Positions 6,787 through 57,811 of a stretch of 64,000 nucleotides of DNA are shown piece after piece. Each line of letters starts with the position of its first letter. The first letter of the stretch is position 1. The DNA is taken from assembly GCF_009756665.1 (NCBI RefSeq), contig NZ_CP037953.1, positions 2,170,001-2,234,000 of the forward strand, written 5' to 3'. A program made the position numbers and the translations under genes. Under the pieces are notes generated by a model. It was not told the DNA's origin. It was given only the letters and a program-made list of their open reading frames with translations, and ran no database searches. The stretch is from Permianibacter aggregans (GTDB lineage: Bacteria > Pseudomonadota > Gammaproteobacteria > Enterobacterales > Permianibacteraceae).

Positions 6787-9082
<2,296 letters not shown>

Positions 9083-13060: not shown

Positions 13061-13678
13061 ATGAATTGGTTGAGCAGGGTATTGTTGCTTGGCGTAGCCG
13101 CGATGTTATCCGTTTCCGGTTGCGAAGCAGCCAGCAACGCTCCGTACAAAGAAGGCGTACATTACAAAATCGCCAAGCCGGCCGGCAAAACCGATAAACC
13201 GCAAGTCATCGAGTTTTTTAATCATGGCTGTCCGCATTGCTATCATGCCGAAGTCACCGTTGCGGCGTTTCATCAACAACACCAGGAAATCGACTTCAAG
13301 CGTATTGCCGTCTATGAGTTCCAGCCAGCCTGGAATAATCTAAGCAAAGCCTATTACACCGCCGAAGTGCTCGGTATCGCCAACAAAGCTCATCCGGCGC
13401 TGTTTACGTTGGTGCACGAGAAACACCAGTTACTGCAGAACGATCAACAGATCATCGATTTTCTCAGTCAGCTTGGCGCGTCGCCAGATAGTATCAAAGG
13501 CACTTTGAACTCCTTTGCGGTAAAAACCTTGCTGAGTACAGCGCAACAGAAGCAACGCGAATTCCGTATTACGTCGGTACCGGCATTTATCGTCAATGAC
13601 AAATACTTCACGGATGTGACCATGGCCGGTGGTATTGAAGAACTACCGAAGGTATTGTTGTTCCTGACCCAGAAATAA
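13061..13678 (+). CDS. DsbA-like thiol:disulfide oxidoreductase, possible lipoprotein
   Basis: Periplasmic thioredoxin-fold protein of 205 residues. The active site is C57-P-H-C60, the exact E. coli DsbA dipeptide, inside VIEFFNHGCPHC. The cis-proline loop is TSVPAFIVNDKYF, and a helical insertion lies between them. The N-terminal hydrophobic segment ends in VSGC (C21), which matches a lipobox, so the protein may be anchored to a membrane by lipid rather than soluble. It is followed 57 bases later by a second DsbA-like gene and the two probably share a transcript. Specific substrates are unknown. Confidence 0.9.
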   Translation: MNWLSRVLLLGVAAMLSVSGCEAASNAPYKEGVHYKIAKPAGKTDKPQVIEFFNHGCPHCYHAEVTVAAFHQQHQEIDFKRIAVYEFQPAWNNLSKAYYTAEVLGIANKAHPALFTLVHEKHQLLQNDQQIIDFLSQLGASPDSIKGTLNSFAVKTLLSTAQQKQREFRITSVPAFIVNDKYFTDVTMAGGIEELPKVLLFLTQK

Positions 13679-13735: not shown

Positions 13736-14353
13736 ATGATCGCTGTAAAACTGCTATTGTCCGCCGCGCTGGCATTTGCCGCCTCGCAAGCTACCGTGGC
13801 AGCCACGACACCGTTAGTCGAAGGTACCCATTACAAGATCGTCGACCCTACCGGCAAAACCAAGCAGCCGACAGTCACCGAATTCTTTTCTTATGGCTGC
13901 CCGGCGTGCCGCGGTATGGAAGGTCATCTAGCCAACTGGAAAGCCAGCAAGCCACAAAACATCAAGTTTGAGTATGTGCATGTTTACGGCATGAACCCGC
14001 AGTGGGATTTGCTGGGCAAGCTCTACTACACCGCCGAAGCACTGGGCATTCTCGACAAAACCCATACCGCGACGTTCAACTATCTGCATCTGGAAAACAA
14101 ACGGATCAACAACGAAAACGATATCGTTGAGTTTCTGAGCAAGTTCGGCATTGAAGCCGACAAGATCCGCAGCACGATGAAATCATTCGCGGTGAATTCG
14201 CGTTTGAATTTTGCCAAACAGAAAGCCAAGACCTACAAGCTGACTGGCGTACCCTCGTTTATTGTCAACGACAAGTACTACCTCGATGTCAAAGAGCTCG
14301 GCACCATCGAGATGCTGGAAAAAGCGTTAACGGAAGTGTCGTTGAATAAATAA
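13736..14353 (+). CDS. DsbA-like thiol:disulfide oxidoreductase
   Basis: Second thioredoxin-fold oxidoreductase, also 205 residues and clearly paralogous to its upstream neighbour. Both share an EGxHYKI segment after the signal region, a YYTAE helix and a VPxFIVNDKY cis-Pro loop. The active site is C55-P-A-C58 in TEFFSYGCPACR. The N-terminus is a cleavable Sec-type signal (hydrophobic, ending about ATVA-A) without a lipobox, so it should be soluble in the periplasm. The different CxxC dipeptides (PHC versus PAC) suggest different redox potentials or partners. A good AAGGAGA ribosome-binding site and a downstream terminator bound the gene. Confidence 0.9.
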   Translation: MIAVKLLLSAALAFAASQATVAATTPLVEGTHYKIVDPTGKTKQPTVTEFFSYGCPACRGMEGHLANWKASKPQNIKFEYVHVYGMNPQWDLLGKLYYTAEALGILDKTHTATFNYLHLENKRINNENDIVEFLSKFGIEADKIRSTMKSFAVNSRLNFAKQKAKTYKLTGVPSFIVNDKYYLDVKELGTIEMLEKALTEVSLNK

Positions 14354-43769: not shown

Positions 43770-43905
43770 ACGTTCGCGCTTTTCCTGAATCGGTCATTCA
43801 GCGGACGAAGCGCTAGTTCTGTCGCCAGTAACGATGATTCAAGTCCAGTGCTGATTGACAGTCGTAGCGCTGATCGCTAGTTTGCGAAACCTCGACATAC
43901 ATGGA

Positions 43906-44592
43906 ATGTACCCGCCAGTGATTAGCGTCAGCAGTCTGGTTAAACGGTATCGCATGGGTGACAGTGAAGTCACCGCTCTGGATGGCATCTCGCTCGACAT
44001 CGCCGCTGGCGAATACGTCGCCATCATGGGGCCGTCCGGTTCCGGCAAATCCACCTTGATGAATGTGCTCGGCTGTCTCGACAAGCCCGATGCTGGTATT
44101 TATCGCCTGGCCGACGCCGATGTCGCCGGTCTCGATGATGATGCGCTATCAGCGGTGCGCAATCGCGATATCGGTTTTGTTTTCCAGGGCTTCCATCTGC
44201 AGGCGCGGCGCAGCGCTGAAGAGAATGTTGCGCTGCCATTGCGTTACGCCAATATCGACAAAAACGAAGCGCAGAAGCGCGCTCGTGAAATGCTGGAACG
44301 GGTCGGTCTTGGTCACCGGTTGCATCATCGACCGAATGAATTATCCGGCGGCCAGCGTCAGCGCGTGGCGATTGCCCGGGCGCTGATCAATCAACCGAAA
44401 GTAATCTTCGCTGACGAGCCGACCGGCAACCTCGACAGTCGCACCTCCGAAGAAATCATGAACCTGTTTGATGAACTGAATGGGCAAGGCCAAACACTGG
44501 TGCTGGTCACCCATGAGGACGATATCGCGCGTCGAGCGGCGCGCATTATCCGGATGCGCGATGGTCGCATTCAGGAGGACCGCCGTGCGTAA
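43906..44592 (+). CDS. ABC transporter ATP-binding protein (MacB/LolD type)
   Basis: The 228-residue ATPase drives a MacB/FtsX-class permease. Walker A is GPSGSGKST, the Q-loop region is FVFQGFHLQ, the signature is LSGGQRQRVAIARAL and Walker B is VIFADEPTGNLD, followed by the H-loop VTHEDD. Close relatives are LolD and the ATPase part of MacB. The start was set at 43906; a GTG at 43918 is also possible. It is first of five overlapping genes. The cognate permease is the fifth (47735-48970), with three adaptors between them. Confidence 0.93.
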   Translation: MYPPVISVSSLVKRYRMGDSEVTALDGISLDIAAGEYVAIMGPSGSGKSTLMNVLGCLDKPDAGIYRLADADVAGLDDDALSAVRNRDIGFVFQGFHLQARRSAEENVALPLRYANIDKNEAQKRAREMLERVGLGHRLHHRPNELSGGQRQRVAIARALINQPKVIFADEPTGNLDSRTSEEIMNLFDELNGQGQTLVLVTHEDDIARRAARIIRMRDGRIQEDRRA

Positions 44593-45556
44593 ATTGCCGT
44601 TGTTATTGCTGGCATTACCATGCCTTGCCGAGCAGCCGAGTTTATTGATCACCGGTCAAGTGGCGGCCCGTGAAGCGCAGTATTTCATCGTGCCGCGCAG
44701 CGATAGCTGGCAGCAACAAATCAAGTGGTTGGCCGCCGAAGGGCAAGTGGTGCAGCCGGGTGAGCCAGTGCTGATTTTCGACGCCGCCAATTTGCAGGCC
44801 GATATTCGGCAAAAAGAAGCTGAGTTGCGCGCCGCTGAACAAAAAGCTCAGGAAGAAAATCTGAAACGAAATCAGGAATTATTGAAAGCCCAGCACGAGT
44901 TGACGCAAGCAAAACTCGCACAACAAAAAGCCGAAGTCGACGCCCGTGTGCCGGCTGAACATTTAAGCCGGTTCCAGTACGAGCAATATCAATTCGCCTT
45001 GCGCAAAGCCGAACACCTGGTGCAGCAAGCCGAATTGAATCTGCGTAACAAGGAAAAGGAAGTCGCCGTTGAGGCGCGCAAACAAAAACTGGATGTTCGG
45101 CGCATCGAAAGTGATTTGCAGCACAAGCGTGAGCAATTAGCCGGCATGGAGCTGAAAGCCGAGCGCGCTGGTGCCGTCATGCATGGCCGTCATCCCTGGA
45201 ACGGCACCAAGCTGACGCCGGGCGCCAATGTTCAACCTGGCTGGATCATCGCCGAAATTCCCAATCGCGACTCCTTGCAAGTGCAGGCCTGGGTGCACGA
45301 AGTCGATGCACCGAAGTTGATCAATAACGCTCCTGTCAGTTTGCGTCTCGACGCCAATCCGAACTTGCGCCTGCAGGGGCAAATTCGCCGTATCGGCCAG
45401 CAGGCAGAGAAGCGTCAGAACTGGGGTGATGCCAAGTATCTGGAGATCTGGGTGGAACTGGCGCCGGATACGCCGCTTGAACGGTTGACGCCGGGCATGA
45501 GTGTACTGGTCGATATGCCGCTCAATCGTGGTGAAGCACTTGGAGCAGCGCCATGA
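44585..45556 (+). CDS. HlyD/MacA-like periplasmic adaptor 1
   Basis: Membrane-fusion (adaptor) protein of 323 residues. It has a Sec signal (MRKLPLLLLALPCLA), a lipoyl half-motif (VVQPGEPVLIFDAANLQADI), a long coiled-coil hairpin rich in K, E, Q and A (about 65-205), the second lipoyl half, and a beta-barrel with VQAWVHEVDAPKLINN and a late LTPGMSVLVDMPL. The GTG start at 44585 has an excellent AGGAGG site and overlaps the ATPase gene by eight bases. It lacks the lipobox seen in the two following adaptors. The role would be to connect the inner-membrane ABC permease to the periplasm or an outer-membrane channel. Confidence 0.85.
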   Translation: MRKLPLLLLALPCLAEQPSLLITGQVAAREAQYFIVPRSDSWQQQIKWLAAEGQVVQPGEPVLIFDAANLQADIRQKEAELRAAEQKAQEENLKRNQELLKAQHELTQAKLAQQKAEVDARVPAEHLSRFQYEQYQFALRKAEHLVQQAELNLRNKEKEVAVEARKQKLDVRRIESDLQHKREQLAGMELKAERAGAVMHGRHPWNGTKLTPGANVQPGWIIAEIPNRDSLQVQAWVHEVDAPKLINNAPVSLRLDANPNLRLQGQIRRIGQQAEKRQNWGDAKYLEIWVELAPDTPLERLTPGMSVLVDMPLNRGEALGAAP

Positions 45557-46554
45557 AAAATATCGCACCGTTTGTTTTCGCTAGTTGTTTGTTGGGTTGC
45601 GCTGCAGAAAGTGATCAGCGCGCATTAGCCGACGCGCCGCTTTCTACGTCTTTGGTGCAGGCCAGTGGTGAACTGGCGTCAGCAGACACGGTATTGCTTG
45701 GCCCGCCGATGATTCAGCATGTCTGGCAGCACAAAATCACCTTGCTGGCACCGGAAGGATCGCAAACCAAAGCCGGTCAACCGGTGCTTGGTTTCGATGC
45801 CAGCAATCAGCAGCAGGAGTTGATCGTCAAAAGAAGTGAGCTGGCCACCGCCAAACAAAAACTCGACAACACGATCATGAGCGATAACGCGACGTTGCAG
45901 GAATTAAAACTGAAGCTGGCCGAAGCGCAGATGCAAAAAGAAAAAGCGGCGCGCAAGCTGGAGCAATCGGAAAGCCTGGTTGCTGCCAATGAATTGAAAA
46001 AACTGCGCATCGATCAAGCTATCGCCGACGACAAATTGATGGAAGCGGAAAAACTGCTGAAACAACACCAGCATGCCTCATCGGCGCGCAAGGAAATTGC
46101 TGCCGCCGAATTGGCCCGATTCGAAGCCGAGGTTGCGCGCTTGCAAGGTGAAATCCAGCGCATGACCGTATTGGCGCCCAAAGAGGGTTTGGTTGTCTAC
46201 AAAACCGATTGGCAAGGCAACAAATTTGGCGAAGGCGATACCGTTTACGTTGGTCAATCGGTCATGGAAATTCCTTCACTGGAAAACATGATCGTCAAGG
46301 CCGAGGTGCTGGAAGTTGATGCCGGTCGTCTGCGCGTAGGGCAACCAGTGCAGATTACTCTCGATGCACAACCGGACCGGCAATTTCATGGACAAGTGCG
46401 AACGCTCGGTCAGGTATTTCGCAGCAAATCGCACAAGGATCCGGCGGTGGTGTTCGATGCGGAAATCACCATCAGCAATCCCGATGCGGAGTTGATGCGA
46501 CCGGGAATGGCGGTGCGTTTGCGGGTTGATACCAGCAAAGAGGATGCGACATGA
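45553..46554 (+). CDS. HlyD/MacA-like periplasmic adaptor 2, lipoprotein
   Basis: Second adaptor in the row, 333 residues. The N-terminus ends in LLGC, a lipobox. TKAGQPVLGFDASNQQQEL is the lipoyl half-motif, followed by a long coiled coil (about 90-200) with Lys/Glu/Ala heptads, then MTVLAPKEGLVVYK, the beta-barrel (VKAEVLEVDAGRLRVGQPV) and an RPGMAVRLRVD C-terminus. It overlaps the first adaptor by four bases (ATGA). Sequence similarity to adaptors 1 and 3 is mainly in the domain signatures, so they are diverged paralogues rather than recent copies. Confidence 0.87.
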   Translation: MKNIAPFVFASCLLGCAAESDQRALADAPLSTSLVQASGELASADTVLLGPPMIQHVWQHKITLLAPEGSQTKAGQPVLGFDASNQQQELIVKRSELATAKQKLDNTIMSDNATLQELKLKLAEAQMQKEKAARKLEQSESLVAANELKKLRIDQAIADDKLMEAEKLLKQHQHASSARKEIAAAELARFEAEVARLQGEIQRMTVLAPKEGLVVYKTDWQGNKFGEGDTVYVGQSVMEIPSLENMIVKAEVLEVDAGRLRVGQPVQITLDAQPDRQFHGQVRTLGQVFRSKSHKDPAVVFDAEITISNPDAELMRPGMAVRLRVDTSKEDAT

Positions 46555-47738
46555 AAGGCGTTGCGTTGCTGTTGATGCTGGCGTTGAGTGCCTGTTCATC
46601 TCAAACCGAACAAAGCGCCGCTGAACTGGTTTTGCAACCCGCAGATTTCAGCATACGGGTGCAGGCCGAAGGCGAACTGGAAGCGTCAACCGCGACGCCG
46701 ATCACGATGCCGGCGGGCATTTCCGAGCCTCAAGTATTGGCCTGGATGCAGGAAGAAAACGTTCGGGTCAAGGCCGGCGACATCGTCGCGAAGCTCGATG
46801 AGAAACGCTTCCAACGTGAGGCCGAGCAGGAACGCCTGAAAATATCGCAGGCGGAATTGTCATTGAACAGTCGCGAGTTTGTGCTTGGCGGTGAACGACG
46901 CAGCATTGGCGCCGAACTGGATCTGGTGCGTGAAGAGCTGGACTTTGCCAGTCGTTTTGCGGTCGAGGATCTGCGTGTTTACTCGCGCATCGAGATAATC
47001 GACAAGCTCGCCAATGTCGATTACCTACAATCGCGCCAGGCTCATCAGCAATGGCGTAACGACCGTCATGACAACAAAACCGAGGCAGAGTTGGCGTTGC
47101 TGCAATTGCAACAGAAGCAACACCAAACCCGCTTGCAAAGCGTCGAACGGTCATTGGGACAAATGCTGATCCGGGCACCGCATGACGGCGTGCTGATCCA
47201 TGCCCGCGATTGGGGTGAACCATTGCGGGTCGGTGCAACGCTCTGGCCGGGCCGCAAAATCGCCGTTATTCCGGACATGAACAAGTTACAGGCGAAACTG
47301 CACGTGCTGGAGAGCGAAGCGCTTGGACTGGCCGCTGGACAATCGGTAACGTTGCGGGTCGATGCGCTGCCGGAATTGTCCTTGCGCGGTACAGTCACCC
47401 AAGTCGACAAGCTGGCAAAACCGCGTCAGCGCAATAACCCGGTGAAATATTTCGAGTTGATGGTGCAGATCGAACAGGCACCGGTTGAACGCTTGCGTCC
47501 CGGCATGGCGGTGCGTGCCGATATTCTCGTTATCGAAAAAAATAATGTATTGACGGTGCCGGTGCAGGCGCTCAGTCAACAAGAAGGCAAACACTGGGTC
47601 TGGCGTTATGACGGCGAACAATTTATTCAGCACGCTGTTGATGTCGGCGCCCGCAGCCAGAGCCGGGTAGAAATCATTGGTGGTGCGCAAGCCGGCGACA
47701 GAATTCTGCTGTTGCCACCGACTGGACACAACACATGA
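46551..47738 (+). CDS. HlyD/MacA-like periplasmic adaptor 3, lipoprotein
   Basis: Third adaptor, 395 residues and the longest. The signal ends in LSAC (lipobox). The lipoyl half reads RVKAGDIVAKLDEKRFQRE. A coiled-coil hairpin (about 85-200) is followed by MLIRAPHDGVLIHARDW, the beta-barrel region, RLRPGMAVRADILV, and an extra membrane-proximal domain (VLTVPVQALSQQEGKHWVWRYDG to the end), as in MacA and RND adaptors. This one is therefore the most complete MacA-like subunit. It overlaps both neighbours by four bases. Confidence 0.9.
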   Translation: MKGVALLLMLALSACSSQTEQSAAELVLQPADFSIRVQAEGELEASTATPITMPAGISEPQVLAWMQEENVRVKAGDIVAKLDEKRFQREAEQERLKISQAELSLNSREFVLGGERRSIGAELDLVREELDFASRFAVEDLRVYSRIEIIDKLANVDYLQSRQAHQQWRNDRHDNKTEAELALLQLQQKQHQTRLQSVERSLGQMLIRAPHDGVLIHARDWGEPLRVGATLWPGRKIAVIPDMNKLQAKLHVLESEALGLAAGQSVTLRVDALPELSLRGTVTQVDKLAKPRQRNNPVKYFELMVQIEQAPVERLRPGMAVRADILVIEKNNVLTVPVQALSQQEGKHWVWRYDGEQFIQHAVDVGARSQSRVEIIGGAQAGDRILLLPPTGHNT

Positions 47739-48970
47739 TCAGCTGGCAACACATACGCGAAGCGCTGGAAGAACAGCTGCATCACAAACTGCGCACCTTG
47801 TTGACCTTGCTTGGCATGATTTTCGGTGTCGGTGCCGTGATCGCCATGCTCAGCATCGGTGAAGGCGCTGAGCGCGAAGCATTACAGTTGATCGACGAGC
47901 TCGGTTTGCGCAACTTGATCGTCGAAGGCAAGCCGGTCGAGGAAGATCGGTTGCGGGAGCAGCGCAAACATTCGCTTGGCTTGAATCGGCGAGACATTGA
48001 AGTGGCAATGGACACGCTGCCATTTGTGCGCAACTGGAGCGCGGAAAAGCGGGTGAAAACCTACCTGTTGTTCAGTGAGCAAGGCCGTTCCGACGCTGCC
48101 GTTTTCGCGGTCAGTCCGAGTTATTTTCAGCTCAGCCATCTGCAGGTAGCGTCCGGTAGGTTGCTCAGCGAAGAAGATGATCGCCATTTCGCCCAGGTGG
48201 CGGTGCTGGGCCCGGAAACGGCCCGGCAGCTTTTTCCCGGCGGTGATGCCGTAGGCCAGCTGATTAAAATCAATCATGTCTGGCTGCGCGTCGTTGGTGT
48301 GCTGGCCGACAAACAACTGAGCAAATCGGAATTTCAGGGCGTCAAACTCGGCGGTGAAAAGAACCGGGTATTCATTTCACTGGACAATGCCCACCGCCGT
48401 TTCAAATTCGAGCCGCTGGAATCCACGCTCGACGCCTTCCGGCTTGAACTGGAACCGGGCGCCAACCCACTGGTGGCGGCGGAAAGTCTGCGTCATCTGT
48501 TGCAGCGTCGTCACAATGACATCGACGATTTCGACATCGTGGTACCGGCACAACTGATGGCTCAGCACCGGGAAACGCGCCGCATTTTCACCATTGTCAT
48601 GAGCTGCGTCGCCGGCATTTCGTTATTGGTCGGTGGCATTGGCATCATGAACATCATGCTGGCCAGTGTGCTTGAACGCACGCATGAAATCGGTTTGTTG
48701 CGTGCCATCGGCGCCCGCAGGAAAGACATCCTGACGCAATTTATGGTTGAGAGTTTTACCATTACGACGCTTGGTGGCTTGCTTGGTATTGTGCTCGGTT
48801 TTGCGCTGGCTGCAGTGATTGCCTGGTATGCCGGCTGGGCCGTCGGTTTCTCGCTGACTGCGATTCTTGTGTCGGTTGGTGTCTGCGCGTTAATTGGTAT
48901 GGTGTTTGGTTTGTATCCCGCCATGCAAGCCGCAAAACTCGATCCAATCGTCGCGCTGCAGCGCGAATAG
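47735..48970 (+). CDS. ABC transporter permease (MacB/FtsX family)
   Basis: The 411-residue inner-membrane permease has the MacB topology: a first helix with LHHKLRTLLTLLGMIFGVGAVIAMLSIGEGA, a large periplasmic MacB_PCD domain (about 50-275), then three helices beginning ETRRIFTIVMSCVAGISLLVGGIGIMNIMLASV with ERTHEIGLLRAIGA and the terminal AAKLDPIVALQRE. It pairs with the ATPase at 43906. MacB-class transporters act as mechanotransmission pumps with periplasmic adaptors and TolC-type channels; no outer-membrane channel gene is nearby. Peptide genes begin 161 bases downstream, suggesting peptide export or self-protection as a role (inference). Confidence 0.93.
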   Translation: MISWQHIREALEEQLHHKLRTLLTLLGMIFGVGAVIAMLSIGEGAEREALQLIDELGLRNLIVEGKPVEEDRLREQRKHSLGLNRRDIEVAMDTLPFVRNWSAEKRVKTYLLFSEQGRSDAAVFAVSPSYFQLSHLQVASGRLLSEEDDRHFAQVAVLGPETARQLFPGGDAVGQLIKINHVWLRVVGVLADKQLSKSEFQGVKLGGEKNRVFISLDNAHRRFKFEPLESTLDAFRLELEPGANPLVAAESLRHLLQRRHNDIDDFDIVVPAQLMAQHRETRRIFTIVMSCVAGISLLVGGIGIMNIMLASVLERTHEIGLLRAIGARRKDILTQFMVESFTITTLGGLLGIVLGFALAAVIAWYAGWAVGFSLTAILVSVGVCALIGMVFGLYPAMQAAKLDPIVALQRE

Positions 48971-49049
48971 ATAATGCGAAGTGGCTCAAGTGAGCATCGA
49001 GAATCAAGTCCCATATTCCCTTTGCTCCAGAGCGATATCCGAGTTGTCA

Positions 49050-49078
49050 TTGACGGTAGAAATCTCGCTTTCTATGGT
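49050..49078 (+). promoter_or_regulatory. Promoter of precursor peptide 1
   Basis: TTGACG (49050-49055), 17 bases, TATGGT (49073-49078). Transcription would start near 49085. It has the same -35 hexamer, preceded by CA, and the same spacing as the promoter of peptide 2. Confidence 0.7.
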
Positions 49079-49085
49079 CGATGCT

Positions 49086-49101
49086 GCCGTCAAATGACGG
49101 C
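49086..49101 (+). promoter_or_regulatory. Short dyad at the predicted transcript 5' end of peptide 1
   Basis: GCCGTCA and TGACGGC (49086-49092, 49095-49101) separated by two bases, placed at the expected +1. It could be an operator or a 5'-terminal stem. A dyad of unrelated sequence sits in the same place before peptide 2. Confidence 0.45.
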
Positions 49102-49131
49102 GAATACTCAAAACATCGCTAGGAGTCAGAA

Positions 49132-49320
49132 ATGGAAAACAAGCAAAAGCTTTTCGCCTTCAAAGTGATCGCCAAGGAGTCGCGGCAGGCAGTCAACAAG
49201 GATGGCAAGTGGTTGGCGCGCGAAGGCGTTGCCACTGCCGGTTGTACAGACCCGCGAGGTTGGGGTGCAGTGCGTTACTCGAACTGGTGGGGTGGTGTTG
49301 ACGCTGGCGCCTTCTGTTAA
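49132..49320 (+). CDS. Candidate RiPP precursor peptide 1 (62 residues)
   Basis: The 62-residue peptide shows no similarity I recognise outside its paralogue. The N-terminal part (1-30) is charged and begins MENKQKLFAFKV, with a likely recognition motif KLFAFKV, comparable in position to the leader helix motif in graspetide precursors. The C-terminal part (about 33-62) is Gly/Trp/Arg-rich, AGCTDPRGWGAVRY...WWGGVDAGAFC, with C38 and C-terminal C62. T39, D40 and D57 are the conserved side chains that an ATP-grasp enzyme could join. An AGGAG site lies upstream. It and peptide 2 align without gaps, 44 of 62 positions identical. The core/leader boundary is inferred. Confidence 0.75.
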   Translation: MENKQKLFAFKVIAKESRQAVNKDGKWLAREGVATAGCTDPRGWGAVRYSNWWGGVDAGAFC

Positions 49321-49773
49321 TTGATGCAATACAGCGGAGCGCAAGGTGGTAAACGCAGCTCTGCTCAAATTTATTTAGCAAGTGGCGTGAAAATGAGTGC
49401 AAGACTAGTTCGCGGAACAGAGCTAACGACCCGGCGCGGGTTCCTTAACAGCACTCTCCGCTGATCCGCACTGGCTCATTCCATTCCTGCACACCTGTCA
49501 GCCGGCTCCCGGCCCCTCGCTGAAATACTCCAAACGCAATGAAACGTTGACGATTTGTAGCTTTTTGTAGAATTTTGTATAGCAAGTTTCTTTACAAGTA
49601 CGTCATCAGAATTTACAACGGCGAAAAAAAACGTGAATTAACGCCCAGAGCATTTGCTATGTGATTGGCAAAAAGCGATTCAAAAACAGTCGGTTGTCCA
49701 CGCTTATCCGCGATATTGAACACGGATTAACTTCATTCAGTACGGACCGCAAATCCGACGTCTACTTTTAGCA
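49321..49773. other. Non-coding region between the two precursor peptide genes
   Basis: About 450 bases with no open frame that I can support and an AT-rich second half unlike the surrounding genes. It contains a short GC dyad ACCCG-GCG-CGGGT (49429-49441) that might weakly terminate the first peptide transcript, and helically phased TTTGTA repeats (listed separately). No third peptide copy was found. Confidence 0.6.
49554..49618. repeat. Phased TTTGTA repeats with inverted copies
   Basis: TTTGTA occurs at 49554, 49564 and 49574, exactly 10 bases apart, so all lie on the same DNA face. Inverted TACAA copies follow at 49593 and 49614. The pattern is suggestive of a regulator-binding array upstream of the second peptide promoter (its -35 is at 49774). 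Confidence 0.45.
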
Positions 49774-49802
49774 TTGACGTACAAATTCATGCTCCCTATA
49801 TT
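49774..49802 (+). promoter_or_regulatory. Promoter of precursor peptide 2 and the maturation operon
   Basis: TTGACG (49774-49779), 17 bases, TATATT (49797-49802); predicted start near 49809. It is stronger in its -10 than the peptide 1 promoter. Confidence 0.75.
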
Positions 49803-49809
49803 CGCTTCC

Positions 49810-49831
49810 ACCATCATCGGACGATGATGGT
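49810..49831 (+). promoter_or_regulatory. Dyad at the predicted transcript 5' end of peptide 2
   Basis: ACCATCATC (49810-49818), loop GGAC, GATGATGGT (49823-49831), followed by TTT. It begins at the expected +1 and ends 27 bases before the ATG. It could be an operator, a 5' stabilising stem, or an attenuator because T residues follow. Confidence 0.5.
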
Positions 49832-49858
49832 TTTACCAACGTTCAATAGGAGTCAGAA

Positions 49859-50047
49859 ATGGAAAACAAGCAAAAGCTTTTCGCCTTCAAAGTAGTCGCC
49901 AAGGAAAACGCCGTGGCAGTGAACAAGGACAACAAGTGGTCAGCGCGTGACGGCGTAGCTGCCGCTGGCTGCACCGACCCGCGCAATCTGGGCATGGTAC
50001 GTTACCCGAGTCGCTGGGGTGGCATCGATTCCGGCGTGTATTGCTGA
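49859..50047 (+). CDS. Candidate RiPP precursor peptide 2 (62 residues)
   Basis: Paralogue of the peptide at 49132. The first 12 residues are identical and the DNA around the start is nearly identical too (AGGAGTCAGAA before the ATG in both). The C-terminal part reads AGCTDPRNLGMVRYPS RWGGIDSGVYC, with C38, T39, D40, D57 and C62 conserved. Variation clusters in residues 17-19 and 43-52, a pattern expected if the leader is fixed and the core diversifies. No membrane segment. It is followed by a hairpin and then the ATP-grasp gene, so it is the proximal substrate of the maturation genes (inference). Confidence 0.78.
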   Translation: MENKQKLFAFKVVAKENAVAVNKDNKWSARDGVAAAGCTDPRNLGMVRYPSRWGGIDSGVYC

Positions 50048-50058
50048 TCGTTGCCGTC

Positions 50059-50087
50059 GGTGGAAGGCAATTTTCTCGCCTTCCACC
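50059..50087 (+). terminator. Hairpin between peptide 2 and the maturation genes
   Basis: GGTGGAAGGC (50059-50068), a nine-base loop and GCCTTCCACC (50078-50087) form a perfect 10-base stem. No T-run follows, so it probably acts as a partial terminator or mRNA-stabilising 3' end, giving more peptide than enzyme transcript. That role is known for other RiPP operons and inferred here. Confidence 0.6.
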
Positions 50088-50120
50088 AATGAAACGGACT
50101 GAGTCATAACAGGGTCAAGG

Positions 50121-51128
50121 ATGGACAAGAAAATCCTGATTGTAAGCAATAGTTACGATATCCACGCTGATCTGGTCATGGAAAAGCTGCAGGCCAGGGG
50201 AGTTGAAGTTTTCCGCCTGAATCAAGACAATTTTCCTCGTGATTATGGCATCGCTATTCAACATGGAGTCAGTAATGTCAGTTGTGAGCTTGGACAGCTC
50301 AAGTCGGGTCAATCGTTGAATCTGTTGGATGTCGGCGCAATTTGGACGCGAAAACCCGCACCGTTCCGGTTCATAAGCGATGATCTGCCAGCGCAAGAAC
50401 GGGCATTTGCCAACGCTGAAACCGCTCATCTGTTCAACAGCATATTATTCTCGCTCGACGGCTTCTGGATGAATCATCCGAAAGCCAATCGAACCGCCCT
50501 ATGGAAAGGTGAGCAACTGCAACGTGCGGCAAAGTTTGGTTTTCGGGTGCCGCGCACACTGATCAGCAACGACCCGGAGCAAGTACGACAATTCAAACAA
50601 GTGCTGCCAGGCGAAATGATCGTCAAAACGCTCTCTTCGGCCTCGCTGTCCGTTGAGGACGTTGAGCCGGAATTCAGGCAGGCTGGCAGTCTGATGACCA
50701 CGATCGTTGATGAACAGCATATGACGTCGATAGATGCCGTACGTGAGCTGCCTTGCTTGTTCCAGGAATACGTTCCCAAGCAGTACGAGCTGCGAGTAAC
50801 GATCATTGGCCAACAGGTCTTTGCCGCCCGTATCGACTCGCAACGAGATCAACGCACGGCAATTGATTATCGTGATTTCTCCGTCGATATTCCGTATCAA
50901 CCGGAACGCCTGTCAAGCGAACTGCAAACCCGCTGTCTCGGGTTTGTCGAGAGCTATGGACTCAGTTATGGCGCGATGGACCTGATCGTGACGCCAGATA
51001 ATGAATACGTTTTTCTTGAAAACAATCCTTCAGGCCAGTTTCTGTTCATTGAACAGCTGGTGCCTGAACTTTCCATGTCTGACGCCGTTACCGATCTGTT
51101 GATTAGACAGAGCCGGCAACGGCGCTGA
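50121..51128 (+). CDS. ATP-grasp peptide maturase (MvdD/graspetide synthetase-like)
   Basis: The 335-residue protein fits ATP-grasp ligases that make ester or amide cross-links in graspetides (microviridin-type MvdC/MvdD). Visible signatures: ILIVSNSYDIHADLV at the N-terminus, IWTRKPAPF, NHPKANRTALWKGEQLQRAAKFGF (substrate-binding family motif), VPRTLISNDP, QEYVPKQYELR (215-225) with K220 and R225, VFAARIDSQ, and the metal-binding E300-x-N302 in FLENNPSGQ. In this family ATP phosphorylates a peptide carboxylate, which is attacked by a Ser/Thr or Lys side chain. Here T39 and D57 of the neighbouring peptides are candidates. Starts 73 bases after peptide 2. Substrate and product are inferred. 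Confidence 0.85.
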   Translation: MDKKILIVSNSYDIHADLVMEKLQARGVEVFRLNQDNFPRDYGIAIQHGVSNVSCELGQLKSGQSLNLLDVGAIWTRKPAPFRFISDDLPAQERAFANAETAHLFNSILFSLDGFWMNHPKANRTALWKGEQLQRAAKFGFRVPRTLISNDPEQVRQFKQVLPGEMIVKTLSSASLSVEDVEPEFRQAGSLMTTIVDEQHMTSIDAVRELPCLFQEYVPKQYELRVTIIGQQVFAARIDSQRDQRTAIDYRDFSVDIPYQPERLSSELQTRCLGFVESYGLSYGAMDLIVTPDNEYVFLENNPSGQFLFIEQLVPELSMSDAVTDLLIRQSRQRR

Positions 51129-51132
51129 GAGC

Positions 51133-51996
51133 ATGTCCATGCAAAATATTATCGAATCATTGCAGCACTATCGACAAAGACCGGTACTGACTATCGCCGC
51201 CACGCAGCTTGATCTGGAGATTCTGCCGCCTTTGTACGAACTGTTGCGACAACAGCCTCGTCGTGAACGTCTTGATGTGCTGTTCTACAGTCGCGGCGGC
51301 ATTGTCAACGCTGCTCGGCGAGTGGCGTTGTTGCTGCGTGAATTTGCTGACGAGATCAGCTTTCTGGTGCCGCACTACTGCGAATCGGCCGGCACCGTCA
51401 CGGCGCTTTCCGCCAACGAAATCATCGCCGGGCCGCTAGCAATCTTTTCGCCGATTGATCCATTGTTGACCGCCGGTCAACCTGGTGAAGCGGGGCCGCT
51501 GGCGTTATCAGCCCAGGATCTGCGTTTGTTTAGTGAGATGAGTCGACAATGGTTCGGGCTCGAACAACACGAAGCCCAGCAACACGCCTTGCAAACGCTG
51601 GCCACCAATATCTTTCCGAGCACGCTGACCTCGTTTTACCGCTCAACATTAGAGATGCAATCTATTTGTCGAGAGCTATTGGCTTTGCATCGGCCGGATG
51701 AAGTCGAGCGTTGTAAACAAATCGCCGATCAGCTGATATTCGGTTATCACTCCCACACTTACGCATTGACCCGTGATGACATGAAGGCGCTGGGTTTGCC
51801 CGTGACGAGCGACCCGGAAATAGAGCCCTTGCTCTGGTCGGTGGCTCAGGCGCTGCATGAATCCGTCGGCGCCATTTCCCGCCGGGAAAGCGATTCGGGT
51901 TGGCAGGATGCGTTATTGGGCAGCGGTGAAGGCCGCTGGCTTCGTACCCGCTCGGAAGACATGCCGCCTCACTGGCAATTCGCTCGCTGGAGCTGA
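51133..51996 (+). CDS. ClpP-fold serine peptidase (SDH/SppA-like)
   Basis: The 287-residue soluble protein resembles the serine dehydrogenase proteinase (SDH_sah) branch of the ClpP/crotonase fold. It has an FYSRGG loop (S53-G56, oxyanion region) and the presumed nucleophile S85 in CESAGTVTALSANEIIAGP, followed by FSPIDPLL, which matches the family's GPIDPQ segment. There is no signal peptide, so cleavage would occur in the cytoplasm. Placed directly after the ATP-grasp gene (four-base gap), it is the best candidate for removing the precursor leader, because the exporter lacks a C39 peptidase domain. The function in RiPP maturation is inferred. Confidence 0.75.
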   Translation: MSMQNIIESLQHYRQRPVLTIAATQLDLEILPPLYELLRQQPRRERLDVLFYSRGGIVNAARRVALLLREFADEISFLVPHYCESAGTVTALSANEIIAGPLAIFSPIDPLLTAGQPGEAGPLALSAQDLRLFSEMSRQWFGLEQHEAQQHALQTLATNIFPSTLTSFYRSTLEMQSICRELLALHRPDEVERCKQIADQLIFGYHSHTYALTRDDMKALGLPVTSDPEIEPLLWSVAQALHESVGAISRRESDSGWQDALLGSGEGRWLRTRSEDMPPHWQFARWS

Positions 51997-51998
51997 GC

Positions 51999-52523
51999 AT
52001 GATCAGCGAAATGGGATCGGAAATTTGTCGGTTGTTGATTTTACTGACATTGCTGTTGTCGAGTTACCACAAACTCTGCGATTGGCGCGGGTTTGCCGCC
52101 AGCCTCGTTGAAGACTTTCGGGTTCCGAAGCAGTCCGGCATTGTTTCGGCCATCGTGATTATCGCCATCGAAGCCCTGACGGCTCTGATGATTCTCAGCG
52201 GTGAACCTTGGCAAATTGTCGGCCTGTATTTGGCGGCCGCTTTGTTTCTCTTGCTCAGTCTGGTACTGGCAAGGGTTTTGTATCACAAGCAGCGGGTTTT
52301 TTGCCAATGCTTCGGTCGCTCCCGTTACCCGATTTCCAGTCTGGATCTGCTTCGCAATGGTATTTATTTTTTTGTCGCCGTTTTTGCGGCGATCGTTGAT
52401 GCGGCGATCGCGCTGACTTGGTTGGAACAGGCGATGTTATTTCTGATCGCGCTGCCTATTTTTCTGCTAACCATTCATCTGAACGAACTGCAGTGGTTGC
52501 TGCAGGAGCAAACACATGAGTGA
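51999..52523 (+). CDS. MauE/DoxX-like redox membrane protein
   Basis: The 174-residue protein has four predicted helices (about 8-24, 46-66, 70-93, 118-160) and the MauE-like C-Q-C-F-G motif (FCQCFGRSRYPIS) between helices 3 and 4. MauE is needed with the thioredoxin-like MauD to form disulfides in methylamine dehydrogenase. Here the next gene encodes a thioredoxin-like protein that overlaps it by eight bases, recreating that pair. A likely role is moving electrons across the membrane for disulfide formation in the peptide; this is inferred. Confidence 0.8.
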   Translation: MISEMGSEICRLLILLTLLLSSYHKLCDWRGFAASLVEDFRVPKQSGIVSAIVIIAIEALTALMILSGEPWQIVGLYLAAALFLLLSLVLARVLYHKQRVFCQCFGRSRYPISSLDLLRNGIYFFVAVFAAIVDAAIALTWLEQAMLFLIALPIFLLTIHLNELQWLLQEQTHE

Positions 52524-53097
52524 AACACTGATCACCATGGCGTTGTTGCTGCTGTTATGTCTGGTCACATTGAATTTGTTTCTGAGCTTGCGCCTAGCCC
52601 GCCGGATGCGTCCAGCCGAGCGCGAACCGAAGTTACCGTTCACGGTGGTTTTGCAAGCCGAACTGCAGCCATTTTCCGCGCTTCGTCTGCAGAGCGAACA
52701 AACTCTAACGGCAGAGCAGTTGTTTGCCAAACCCAGCGTCTGGGTTTTTCTGTCGAGCAGTTGCGCGGATTGCCGCAAACGCCTGCCCGAACTGCTTGCC
52801 CTTTTGCCGGCGATGCAAACGGCGGATGTCGCACTATGGATAACCGGCTTTGAGACGGCCGACAAAATGCGTGGCTTGCTCGGCGAGACAGCATTGTTTC
52901 CGCATTTATTAACGCTCGAACCAGCTGTGCGCCAGCAACTCAATCCGCGCAATAGCGCCCCGTTTTACTTGTTTGTCGACGAAGCACGGATTGCTCAGGC
53001 CAGCAATTTTATTGGTGACCCGAACTGGCAGGCGTTCGTTGCCCAAATGCAGGAGTTTCAGCCGTTGCCAAAACAGGATGTCGTGCATGAATCATGA
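52516..53097 (+). CDS. MauD/TlpA-like membrane-anchored thioredoxin
   Basis: The 193-residue protein has one N-terminal membrane anchor (about 5-28) and a periplasmic thioredoxin-like domain with active site C83-A-D-C86 in VFLSSSCADCRKRLPEL and a cis-proline-like NSAPFYLFVDEA. This layout matches MauD. It partners the upstream MauE-like protein. The peptides have two conserved cysteines, so disulfide formation or isomerisation in them is the natural hypothesis. It overlaps the exporter gene by 11 bases. Confidence 0.82.
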   Translation: MSETLITMALLLLLCLVTLNLFLSLRLARRMRPAEREPKLPFTVVLQAELQPFSALRLQSEQTLTAEQLFAKPSVWVFLSSSCADCRKRLPELLALLPAMQTADVALWITGFETADKMRGLLGETALFPHLLTLEPAVRQQLNPRNSAPFYLFVDEARIAQASNFIGDPNWQAFVAQMQEFQPLPKQDVVHES

Positions 53098-54895
53098 GGC
53101 GGACCTTCGACAGGCGCTGCTACCGCGGCTGGCATTGCTGCGTCCCTATCGATGGCGATTGGCTGTCAGCTATCTGCTGCTGCTGATCACGGCCGGCTTT
53201 CAGCTCGCCTACCCAAGTGCGATTGCCTTGTTCATCGATCAGATGATCGCCGGTGCTGGTTGGTCATGGCTGGCATTGATGGCGGCGATCATGCTGGTGA
53301 TCATTGGCGTTCATGCTGTCGCCAATGCCTTAAGGCATTATCTTTTTGCGTCAACCGGTTCGCAGATTGTTGCCGGCCTGCGTAATCGTTTCTTCATGAC
53401 CATGTTACGACAGAACATCGCGTTTTTTGAACGGGAAAATGTCGGCGAGCTGACCAATCGCCTGACCACCGATATCGACCTGTTGCAGGAAACCCTGACT
53501 ACTGAACTGGCATCATTGCTACAAACAGCACTGATAGCGCTCGGCGGCGCGGTCATGCTGATATCAATTTCACCAGTCTTGAGTCTGCTGATGCTGGTGC
53601 TGGTGCCGGTGGTCATCTGGACCATGCGCAAAGTCGGCGGACAATCGCGCCAACTCGCCAACATGCGCCAGGAACGCCTTGCCTATTGCAGCCGCCTTGC
53701 CCAGGAAATGTTCGCCAATATCCGGTTGGTTCAGGCGTTTACCCAGGAGCGGCAGGCCACTAAACGTTTCACCGATACCACCACTGAAACATTGCAGTAT
53801 TCGCTTTCGGCTGATCTTCTATATGCCGGTCTGGAAGGCGCCGTAACGTTTATCCAAAGCGCCGCGCTTTTGGTGACGGTATTGGCTGGCGGAGTACTGG
53901 TCGCGCAGAAAAGTTTGAGCCTGGGCGAACTGACCAGCTTCATTCTGTATGCCGGCATGACTTCGGGCGCGGCGACGGCGCTGGGAGCGTTGTGGGGCGA
54001 ATGGATGCGTGCTATCGGCGGTACTGATCGGGTGTTCGAGCTGCTCGTCGAAGCAGGCACTGAGAATGCCTCTGAAGACGCGCGCTCATGTCCATCATTG
54101 CACCAGGAACTCCACTTTTCTGCGGTCAGCTTTACCTATCCAACTCGACCGGAACAGGCAGCGTTGAAGCAGTTTTGCTTGCGCATTGAACCAGGTGAAA
54201 AGATCGCGTTGGTCGGTGCCTCTGGTGCCGGCAAGTCCACCGTAATTAACCTGCTACTCGGCTTTTACGCACCTACTCAGGGTGAAATCCGTATAGGCGA
54301 CCGCAATATGCAGTCGGTCAATCTCAGAGAATTGCGTCAGCAGGTCGCCCTTGTTGAACAAGAGCCGGCGCTATTTTCCTGCAGCATCCTCGACAATATC
54401 CGCTACGGTGCACTCAGCGACGTGGACGAACAACAGATTTTGCGAGCTGCCAAAGACGCCAATATCCACGAGTTCGTCAACCAATTCCCTGCCGGCTATC
54501 AAACCGGGGTTGGTGCTCGGGGCGTGCAGTTGTCCGGCGGTCAGAAGCAGCGAGTCGCTATAGCAAGAGCGTTGATCCGCAACCCGAAGCTGCTGATTCT
54601 CGATGAGGCGACCAGCGCTCTGGATGCTGACAGCGAACAAAAACTGCAACAAGCGCTACAGAGGGTGATGGAAGGCCGTACCACCATAATCATTGCACAT
54701 CGGCTTTCGACCATCACGTTTGCGGATCGGATTGTTGTAATGCGGGATGGTTGTATCGTACAGATTGGGACGCATCAGGAACTGATCAAAAATCGCGAAG
54801 GGCACTATTACCAATTGATAGCGGGGCAAATGGCGGCCTGTGCTGATGGCTCCGATTCGACCAATCTTGCGATTGCCGAATCACTTCACGATTGA
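53087..54895 (+). CDS. ABC exporter, fused permease-ATPase (MsbA/peptide exporter type)
   Basis: Inner-membrane half-transporter of 602 residues. The membrane domain (about 20-320) has six helices. The ATPase has Walker A VGASGAGKST, Q-loop VEQEPALFS, signature QLSGGQKQRVAIARAL and Walker B LLILDEATSALD. There is no N-terminal C39 peptidase, unlike many bacteriocin exporters. The start at 53087 (MNHEADLRQ) gives normal length; an in-frame ATG at 52973 lies within the thioredoxin gene. As last gene of the cluster it probably exports the modified peptide. Confidence 0.93.
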   Translation: MNHEADLRQALLPRLALLRPYRWRLAVSYLLLLITAGFQLAYPSAIALFIDQMIAGAGWSWLALMAAIMLVIIGVHAVANALRHYLFASTGSQIVAGLRNRFFMTMLRQNIAFFERENVGELTNRLTTDIDLLQETLTTELASLLQTALIALGGAVMLISISPVLSLLMLVLVPVVIWTMRKVGGQSRQLANMRQERLAYCSRLAQEMFANIRLVQAFTQERQATKRFTDTTTETLQYSLSADLLYAGLEGAVTFIQSAALLVTVLAGGVLVAQKSLSLGELTSFILYAGMTSGAATALGALWGEWMRAIGGTDRVFELLVEAGTENASEDARSCPSLHQELHFSAVSFTYPTRPEQAALKQFCLRIEPGEKIALVGASGAGKSTVINLLLGFYAPTQGEIRIGDRNMQSVNLRELRQQVALVEQEPALFSCSILDNIRYGALSDVDEQQILRAAKDANIHEFVNQFPAGYQTGVGARGVQLSGGQKQRVAIARALIRNPKLLILDEATSALDADSEQKLQQALQRVMEGRTTIIIAHRLSTITFADRIVVMRDGCIVQIGTHQELIKNREGHYYQLIAGQMAACADGSDSTNLAIAESLHD

Positions 54896-56920: not shown

Positions 56921-57052
56921 AACAAGCCAAAAACCTATTGCTTATATTGAAAATCGTATGTAAAGCGCGACGCTGATAGCGCCTTGACGTGATTTATCCG
57001 GTCCTTGTCAGTTTGCTATTACGCTGTCGAAAAAGGTCATGGAGAAGTGCTG

Positions 57053-57811
57053 ATGTTGGCCACGTGTCGGGCAGTTTTTTGCCGCTGGGCTCTACTCGCC
57101 ATCGGGACATTGCCGATTGTCGATGCTGGACTGTACGCCGACACCATGGCGGCACTGCGACAGCAGCTGGTGGCGGCGATTCGTGATGATGTTCAGCGCA
57201 CCCGATCCTATATCGGTCGCAGCGAATTATTGCCGACGGTCATGCGTGCGATCGCGACCGTGCCACGCGAGCATTTTGTGCCGCCGGGACAGCAATTTCG
57301 TGCCTACGAAAACCGGCCGCTGCCAATCGGTTACGGACAAACGATTTCGCAGCCGTATATCGTGGCGTTGATGACTGACCTGCTGGCACCTGAGCGCAAC
57401 GATGTCATGCTCGAAGTCGGTACTGGCTCCGGCTATCAGGCCGCCATACTGGCGCAACTGGTCGACAAGGTTTACACGATAGAAATCATTCCAGAGCTGG
57501 CGACGCCAGCGAAAATCCGTCTGCAACAACTGGAATACCAGAATGTCGAAACTCGCACTGGTGACGGTTACTTCGGTTGGCCAGAAGCAGCACCGTTCGA
57601 CGGCATCATCGTCACCGCTGCTGCCGACCATGTGCCGCCACCGCTGATAGAGCAATTGAAGCCGAATGGCAGGATGGTGATCCCGGTTGGTGATCGCTTC
57701 ACGGTGCAGGAGCTGCTCTTGATCCGCAAAGATGCGCAAGGCGTCATTCATGTTCAGCATATTCTGCCGGTGCGTTTTGTTCCGCTGACCGGTGATCATG
57801 AACTCGAATAA
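57053..57811 (+). CDS. Protein-L-isoaspartate O-methyltransferase, predicted exported
   Basis: SAM-dependent repair methyltransferase of 252 residues. The domain is complete: PREHFVPPGQQFRAYENRPLPIGYGQTISQPYIVALMTDLL, the SAM site VGTGSGYQAAIL, VYTIEIIPEL and the VTAAADHVPPPLIEQLKPNGRMVIPVG segment. It has an N-terminal hydrophobic stretch (about 10-30) that looks like a signal peptide, so it may act in the periplasm, unlike cytosolic PCM. The start at 57053 has a GGAGAAG site. It overlaps the next gene by 14 bases. Confidence 0.88.
   Translation: MLATCRAVFCRWALLAIGTLPIVDAGLYADTMAALRQQLVAAIRDDVQRTRSYIGRSELLPTVMRAIATVPREHFVPPGQQFRAYENRPLPIGYGQTISQPYIVALMTDLLAPERNDVMLEVGTGSGYQAAILAQLVDKVYTIEIIPELATPAKIRLQQLEYQNVETRTGDGYFGWPEAAPFDGIIVTAAADHVPPPLIEQLKPNGRMVIPVGDRFTVQELLLIRKDAQGVIHVQHILPVRFVPLTGDHELE

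Follow-up and report, generated by a model that had tools for sequence, protein, structure and literature searches.

A 64,000-nucleotide stretch of the Permianibacter aggregans genome (contig NZ_CP037953.1, positions 2,170,001 to 2,234,000; here called the window and numbered from its first base) contains a cassette of seven genes at 49132-54895 on the plus strand. Two genes for short precursor peptides are followed by five tightly packed genes, which encode an ATP-grasp ligase, an SDH-type serine protease, a MauE-family membrane protein, a thioredoxin-like (MauD-like) protein and an ATP-binding cassette (ABC) exporter. The cassette probably makes a family of exported graspetides, a type of ribosomally synthesized and post-translationally modified peptide (RiPP), in which a fixed frame of one ester and an end-to-end disulfide carries a variable loop. 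Judged from the sequences of its ligase and precursors, it is a graspetide cassette by design. The loops vary and a locus can hold as many as nine precursors; both features suggest that the secreted peptide serves in competition or as a protease inhibitor.

The proposed pathway has five steps. The ligase would bind the leader motif K-L-F-A-F-K, comparable to PFFARFL in microviridins, and would then esterify the Thr/Ser at core residue 2 with the Asp/Glu at core position -6 (T39-D57), closing a ring of 13-23 residues; this linkage is proposed from conservation. The MauE/MauD-like pair might next oxidise C38-C62 at the cytoplasmic face of the membrane before export, as predicted topology suggests. 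The SDH/ClpP-fold protease would cut after A-G (G37/C38), leaving Cys as the first core residue, and the ABC exporter would send out the bicyclic peptide without a peptidase domain of its own. The calculated neutral monoisotopic masses of the two predicted window products are 2710.159 and 2781.257 (linear peptide minus 18.011 minus 2.016).

Locus, precursors and ligase

An earlier reading of this DNA, made from the sequence only, had described the seven plus-strand genes with their spacing, and all of its coordinates were confirmed: 4 bases separate the ATP-grasp and SDH genes and 2 bases the SDH and MauE genes, the MauE and thioredoxin-like genes overlap by 8 bases, and the thioredoxin-like and ABC genes overlap by 11. 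Its assignments of an MvdD-like ligase, an SDH protease, a MauE protein and an ABC exporter are borne out by Pfam scores above the curated cut-offs, and its numbering of C38 and C62 is correct. The arrangement is far beyond chance because it recurs in other genomes. Whole or partial cassettes occur at 29 loci in 26 genomes, which belong to Pseudomonadota apart from one Pyxidicoccus (Myxococcota) and a single genome of Flavobacteriaceae (Bacteroidota). In three genomes of the window's order the genes follow in the same sequence, behind one or two related precursors.

The 29 loci yielded 52 distinct precursors, all of which consist of a leader containing F-A-F or F-T-F, an A-G pair, and a core of the form C-[TS]-X(11-21)-[DE]-X-[GR]-X-X-C. 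All are thus short peptides with a conserved leader and with donor and acceptor residues in the core, as in a graspetide precursor. Since A-G precedes the first Cys in 52/52, the core boundary was placed before that Cys. Core residue 2 is Thr in 29 precursors and Ser in 23, position -6 is Asp in 50 and Glu in 2, and position -4 is Gly in 51 and Arg in 1. Both members of the previously proposed C38-C62 pair are Cys in every precursor, and Cys is the last residue except in two precursors of one locus (L008), which have one Ala more. Variation is concentrated in the loop of 11-21 residues, with 40 distinct loops in the first 47 precursors and lower similarity in loops than in leaders at 11 of 11 multi-precursor loci. 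The two window precursors are 71% identical to each other. An NCBIfam scan of these two peptides found no named model at E<=1, a scan of 29 family members gave only four single-member matches (E 0.058-0.099), and a literature search with the leader string returned nothing fitting. The L008 locus, from Pseudoduganella violacea, has nine tandem precursor genes and one ligase at 6928-8944, and the two exceptional precursors end in CA rather than C. Among the 52, a third Cys in the core occurs in just one precursor, from the Flavobacteriaceae locus (L019, 8758-8937).

The ligase beside these precursors belongs to the graspetide-synthetase family. Its MvdD pre-ATP-grasp domain exceeds the Pfam cut-off of 27 bits; it scores 247.9 bits with TIGR04187 (SAV_5884 family), under the subfamily cut-off of 350, and it does not reach the NCBIfam equivalogs MvdD (219.5 vs 475) or MvdC (191.4 vs 425). 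Six proteins of solved structure match at E<=1e-5, namely CdnC (E=8.7e-56), 5ig9 (5.2e-55), 5ig8 (8.5e-46), AMdnB, 9bou and 7drm, all of which we take to be graspetide synthetases or close kin; placement of the ligase in a non-peptide family is not what these matches indicate. In a ligase tree built without the three second-cassette ligases (L066, L067, L068), a branch with a support of 96/95 divides 26 cassette ligases from 8 other ligases. The cassette ligases form 22 groups at 90% identity and 18 at 70%. Ligase and precursors together support the graspetide-type RiPP cassette of the sequence-only reading.

The tally of loci began with 22 from a scan of genome contigs, reduced to 19 by dropping L011 (which shares a genome with L005), L028 (a lone ligase, 34% identical, with no cassette around it) and L029 (a broken remnant); three loci from the precursor search of the order's genomes, three second cassettes, the loci of the three same-order genomes and the window's own locus bring the total to 29. 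L037 (E=0.0035, no ligase within its 3 kb) was excluded as a chance match, and L017 and L018, which are cut by contig ends, were left out of presence counts. Among the remaining 27 loci, SDH is present in cis in 26 and MauE with MauD in 24 (fused in L010 and L014); the ABC gene is co-directional in 23 and on the opposite strand in 2; and all six co-directional parts are complete in 21. Three loci (L012, L015, L016) have no MauE/MauD in cis, and the same genomes carry second cassettes with both proteins (L066, L068, L067), which came from a MauD search in four genomes. Each of the 24 genomes with uncut loci encodes at least one SDH, MauE and MauD protein. No other observation argues as strongly for a need of the redox pair as the presence of MauE/MauD in every one of them, and the pair may act in trans on the peptide of another locus.

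Peptides and ligase had also been expected to co-occur, and both the loci and the genome searches support this. A precursor search matched 8 of 394 genomes of the order; a ligase adjoins the precursor in 7, and the eighth match, weak (E=0.0035) and without a ligase, is taken as chance. The precursor profile matched one of 398 genomes of the phylum, the window's own, in a search that scores up to 16 first-look candidates per genome and can miss rare cases. In an equally large sample of the phylum the ligase profile matched 7 genomes, six besides the window's; the cassette profiles were run on five of those six ligase loci and found no SDH, MauE, MauD or precursor in any of the five, one of which (L058) ends ~700 bases past its ligase.

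Table 1. Features of the cassette, in window coordinates.
Feature	Position	Strand	Details
59-nt stretch (ribosome-binding region and leader start)	49120..49178	+	97% identical copy at 49847-49905
Precursor peptide 1, 62 aa	49132..49320	+	leader residues 1-37 (49132-49242), core CTDPRGWGAVRYSNWWGGVDAGAFC (49243-49317), predicted
9-bp hairpin before precursor 2	49810..49831	+	76-nt stretch z = -2.71; 2/200 shuffles as stable
Precursor peptide 2, 62 aa	49859..50047	+	leader 49859-49969, core CTDPRNLGMVRYPSRWGGIDSGVYC (49970-50044), predicted
10-bp hairpin without T run, interval from precursor 2 to ATP-grasp gene	50059..50087	+	z = -3.85; 0/200 shuffles as stable
Graspetide-synthetase-type ATP-grasp ligase, 335 aa	50121..51128	+	PF21068 57.6 bits; solved relatives; clade
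SDH-type ClpP/SppA-fold serine protease, 287 aa	51133..51996	+	PF01972 67.1 bits; predicted leader peptidase
MauE-family membrane protein, 174 aa, 5 predicted transmembrane segments, C-x-C 102/104	51999..52523	+	PF07291 72.7 bits
Membrane-anchored thioredoxin-like (MauD-like) protein, 193 aa, C83-x-x-C86	52516..53097	+	CxxC, fold, family Pfam matches
Fused ABC exporter (permease and ATPase), 602 aa, without C39 peptidase domain	53087..54895	+	PF00664, PF00005 above cut-off

The 59-nt repeat is read as the mark of a precursor gene duplication. The 10-bp hairpin could set the ratio of peptide to enzyme, and the two hairpins may together balance peptide and enzyme amounts. Scans of 48900-50200 gave nothing beyond chance, with 2 promoter-like sites (1.1 expected) and 1 terminator-like site (1.6 expected). 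No peptidase family occurs among the 24 Pfam matches of the ABC exporter at E<=1.

The MauE/MauD-like pair and the site of disulfide formation

The window MauE protein scores well above the PF07291 cut-off of 27 bits, and its C102 and C104 are present in 18/18 members. The MauD-like label given earlier to its partner is weak by the sequence of the window protein itself (AhpC-TSA, E=0.16) but holds by family and fold: at E<=0.01, AhpC-TSA is matched by 16 of 18 family members and Redoxin by 12 of 18 (the window protein is in neither set), the window AlphaFold2 model (predicted local distance difference test score, pLDDT, 92) matches thioredoxins of the TlpA/ResA/CcmG type, and CxxC occurs in 18/18. 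By fold and CxxC, it is an anchored thioredoxin.

The charges around the membrane segments of both proteins bear on their orientation. Counts summed across 18 MauD-like proteins are 1 Lys/Arg and 18 Asp/Glu for the flank that precedes the anchor and 59 Lys/Arg and 14 Asp/Glu for the one that follows it, with a Lys/Arg excess after the anchor in every row. Seven control redoxins, which among 30 loci from related genomes passed a filter for an N-terminal hydrophobic segment and CxxC, hold 14 Lys/Arg and 2 Asp/Glu before the segment and 10 and 17 after it; some of these may represent cleaved signal peptides. Under the positive-inside rule, the charge bias would place the cassette thioredoxin domain in the cytoplasm. 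The C-x-C of MauE lies in the third loop, on the Lys/Arg-rich side, in 18/18 (transmembrane segments were assigned by a simple hydropathy window, which missed one segment in a few rows). In the fused MauE-MauD protein of L010, two transmembrane segments separate the C-x-C from the thioredoxin domain, so both would face the same side.

MauE proteins outside the cassette show similar features. Judged by eye, other proteobacterial MauE proteins have an N-terminal glutaredoxin fusion in 14 of 17 loci inspected (from 18 chosen among 30, the window's own locus included), and Pfam Glutaredoxin scored above its cut-off in 4 of 5 tested. These fusions have no visible signal sequence and a Lys/Arg-rich C-x-C loop. 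If a weak third segment, recognised by eye, is included, an even number of transmembrane segments separates this loop from the glutaredoxin. The same Lys/Arg-rich loop occurs in a plain MauE (L069). The fusions hint at the orientation of the whole MauE family. Many proteobacterial glutaredoxin-MauE fusions with a Lys/Arg-flanked CACVGG loop were seen among L072-L086. The pattern C-x-C-[FWYH]-[GA] fitted none of 29 outside MauE loci.

From this topology the MauE/MauD-like pair is tentatively read, with slightly less than even confidence, as a cytoplasm-facing membrane disulfide machine that would close the peptide ends before leader cleavage and export. The order agrees with the earlier proposal that oxidation precedes both of these steps. 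Thiol oxidases of Gram-negative bacteria are usually assumed to be periplasmic, and on this general expectation the disulfide would instead form in the periplasm after export, with the MauD thioredoxin domain facing out. Two DsbA-family proteins encoded in tandem in the window (13061-13678 and 13736-14353; Pfam DSBA 57.3 and 62.4 bits) are consistent with periplasmic oxidation, as is the speculation, in the part of PMC7794033 that concerns MauE, that this protein helps disulfides form in the methylamine dehydrogenase beta-subunit. Periplasmic oxidation, the chief alternative, is nevertheless rather unlikely: the charge bias of both cassette proteins is reversed relative to control redoxins, the L010 fusion puts C-x-C and thioredoxin on one side, and the glutaredoxin fusions, again counting the weak third segment, put the C-x-C on the glutaredoxin side. 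Cytoplasmic oxidation has its own difficulties. The positive-inside rule is a statistical one, the topology covers 18 of the 24 MauE/MauD cassettes with two rows (L010, L014) that are parts of fused chains, and the cytosol is reducing, so that a disulfide formed there needs a strong dedicated oxidant.

Ester linkage and leader removal

In 16 of the 52 cores residue 2 is the sole Ser/Thr/Lys, and this, together with the single clade of cassette ligases, makes an ester from residue 2 to position -6 the likely shared linkage. The -6 residue is the sole Asp/Glu in 3 of 52 cores, and none of the first 47 cores combines a sole Ser/Thr/Lys at residue 2 with a sole Asp/Glu at -6. Several rings, formed when further Ser/Thr/Lys to Asp/Glu links in the loop join the one from residue 2, would suit the other 36 cores, which hold more than one Ser/Thr/Lys, and characterised synthetases typically install multiple linkages (main text of PMC13097080). 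A multi-ring product is unlikely for the family, since residue 2 and position -6 are the only conserved donor and acceptor, the 16 cores allow no second link of this kind, and the ligases group as one clade. A little less probable still is a different bond, such as a thioester from Cys to Asp/Glu or another ligation to the peptide. Both Cys residues are as invariant as the Thr/Ser and Asp/Glu, and graspetide synthetases can form non-native thioesters (main text of PMC13097080); a thioester, however, would leave the strict Thr/Ser at residue 2 unexplained, and a CxxC/CxC redox pair in each of the 24 genomes argues that the Cys residues are oxidised. That the precursors are lipoproteins, as the lipobox-like [V/T]-A-G-C with its A-G-C in 52/52 might suggest, is highly improbable, given that the N-terminal part is charged (KLFAFK..KK..KW.ARD) and, on inspection, lacks a long hydrophobic stretch, and that position -3 includes Q and R.

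Several points weigh against the single-ester, end-to-end-disulfide graspetide. The cassette products are predictions from the genes, and extra rings are possible in the 36 cores just mentioned. Near-duplicate loci are not independent samples, and several outgroup branches of the ligase tree are long, as a program warning noted. No ABC exporter lies in the available DNA of L010 and L015, those of L026 and L068 are on the opposite strand, and L015 also has no SDH in cis. The precursor profile was built from six precursors, and differing cores could escape it; for this reason the 29 loci were scanned with the leader motif alone, which partly answers the point, the 57 tails found being the 52 precursors and 5 chance-like frames.

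The SDH protein is the predicted leader peptidase. Its PF01972 score passes the Pfam cut-off of 31.3 bits, and its model (pLDDT 83, poorly predicted at 112-127 and 156-162) matches SppA and ClpP chains in Foldseek with TM-scores of ~0.4 by query length. Its sequence had 0 matches to PDB sequences at E<=0.01, and the fold was compared for this reason. S85, D109 and H208 are identical in 20/20 SDH proteins, and we infer that these are the catalytic residues. The protein shares the family match, the SppA/ClpP fold and the invariant Ser/Asp/His with SDH-type ClpP-fold proteases and thus has the features of an SDH/ClpP-fold serine protease, whereas it falls far below the cut-off of the NCBIfam equivalog NF047768 (71.5 vs 250). 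By sequence comparison it is a divergent, cassette-bound branch of PF01972.

Mobility, known relatives and significance

The cassette appears to be mobile. The Pyxidicoccus ligase groups with a Brevundimonas ligase (100/98), which suggests transfer between phyla. No non-cassette flanking family occurs in more than 5 of 23 loci compared, and the stretch from the precursor or precursors to the ABC exporter is therefore taken as the unit. Synteny with two genomes (G001, G002) left the island ends unfixed: upstream permease matches reached at best 36% and 33%, and the downstream permease had none. A plasmid search returned 35 records, and the details given here come from the best one alone, Deinococcus wulumuqiensis plasmid pDrdI (L061), whose ATP-grasp gene at 7675-8888 is the nearest outside the cassette (40.7% identity). 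A 71-aa hypothetical protein encoded before that ligase starts MKNLFAF, is rich in Thr, Ser and Asp and has no Cys; the annotation of the neighbourhood shows no SDH, MauE or MauD beside the ligase. The locus probably encodes another, unnamed graspetide. With an FAF leader, no Cys and no redox pair, this single case fits a leader that serves the ligase and Cys residues that serve the redox pair. In Oxalobacteraceae bacterium AB_14 (L029, 9061-10765), ligase, SDH and ABC fragments stand in order and have the look of a decayed cassette.

Two neighbouring features of the window were set aside. Directly upstream on the same strand (43855-48970) lie genes for a MacB-type ATPase, for three consecutive HlyD-like adaptors and for a MacB/FtsX permease. 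Only the ATPase query, and neither the HlyD-like nor the permease query, found matches in L005-L029, and the block was rejected as a cassette part; it is a possible second export step in the window genome. A protein-L-isoaspartate methyltransferase gene 2 kb downstream (57005-57811; Pfam PCMT 201.3 bits) was rejected as a tailoring enzyme, with no match beside the other cassettes searched.

The cassette shares with microviridins and chryseoviridins a homologous ATP-grasp ligase, a small precursor whose leader carries an aromatic motif close to the N-terminus, and a core with conserved Thr/Ser and Asp/Glu. In contrast to microviridins, it conserves a single donor/acceptor pair and not several, it adds two invariant Cys, the SDH protease and MauE/MauD, and its leader reads KLFAFK rather than PFFARFL (KPFAF in L025 and L036 precursors). 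What would set it apart from characterised graspetides is that only one ester pair is conserved, that Cys residues stand at both ends of the core, and that a ClpP-fold protease and a redox pair accompany the ligase. In the main text of a survey of 43 graspetide groups (Carter et al. 2026, PMC13097080), group 9 has a "serine proteinase" in over half of its members and groups 26, 30, 32 and 40 have neighbouring proteases; a protease gene adjoining the synthetase is common to these groups and the cassette, which may be among them. That main text names only few secondary modifications in graspetides and has no mention of MauE, thioredoxin, ClpP, SDH or disulfide. The main text of Makarova et al. 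2022 (PMC8939145) puts group 9 motifs in its cluster 2, tied to an actinobacterial ligase branch, which argues against the cassette being group 9; ClpP, SDH, Mau, DoxX, thioredoxin and disulfide do not occur in it.

The redox pair also has precedents. In Streptomyces, the decRiPPter study (PMC7794033, 2020) places MauE homologues in 3 families, and MauD in 1 of them, near candidate Cys-containing RiPP precursors; the precursors of these families have at least 8 Cys, and the part of the paper describing them does not state ATP-grasp cassettes. With the MauE/MauD of methylamine utilisation the cassette shares PF07291 and a membrane-anchored thioredoxin; its C-x-C in a Lys/Arg-rich loop recurs in another MauE (L069). 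It differs in its proposed substrate, a peptide core of 19-29 residues, and in that no other Mau gene was seen in it.

The 52 natural variants predict one exact bicyclic frame, in which the end-to-end disulfide encloses the ester and a loop of 11-21 residues varies freely; such a frame would be a natural display scaffold. Because characterised synthetases typically form more than one link (main text of PMC13097080), a single-ester frame would also be a convenient system for studying how graspetide synthetases work. The leader protease of graspetides is said in the main text of PMC8939145 to be unknown, and the SDH protein is a candidate for that role in the class. The task and orientation of MauE/MauD become testable with a small substrate. 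Cytoplasmic oxidation, if correct, would give a reason for keeping a dedicated oxidase where DsbA is also encoded, and would show how a single MauE/MauD pair could serve two cassettes per genome. If other MauE proteins share this orientation, cytoplasm-facing oxidation would be a general property of the MauE family.

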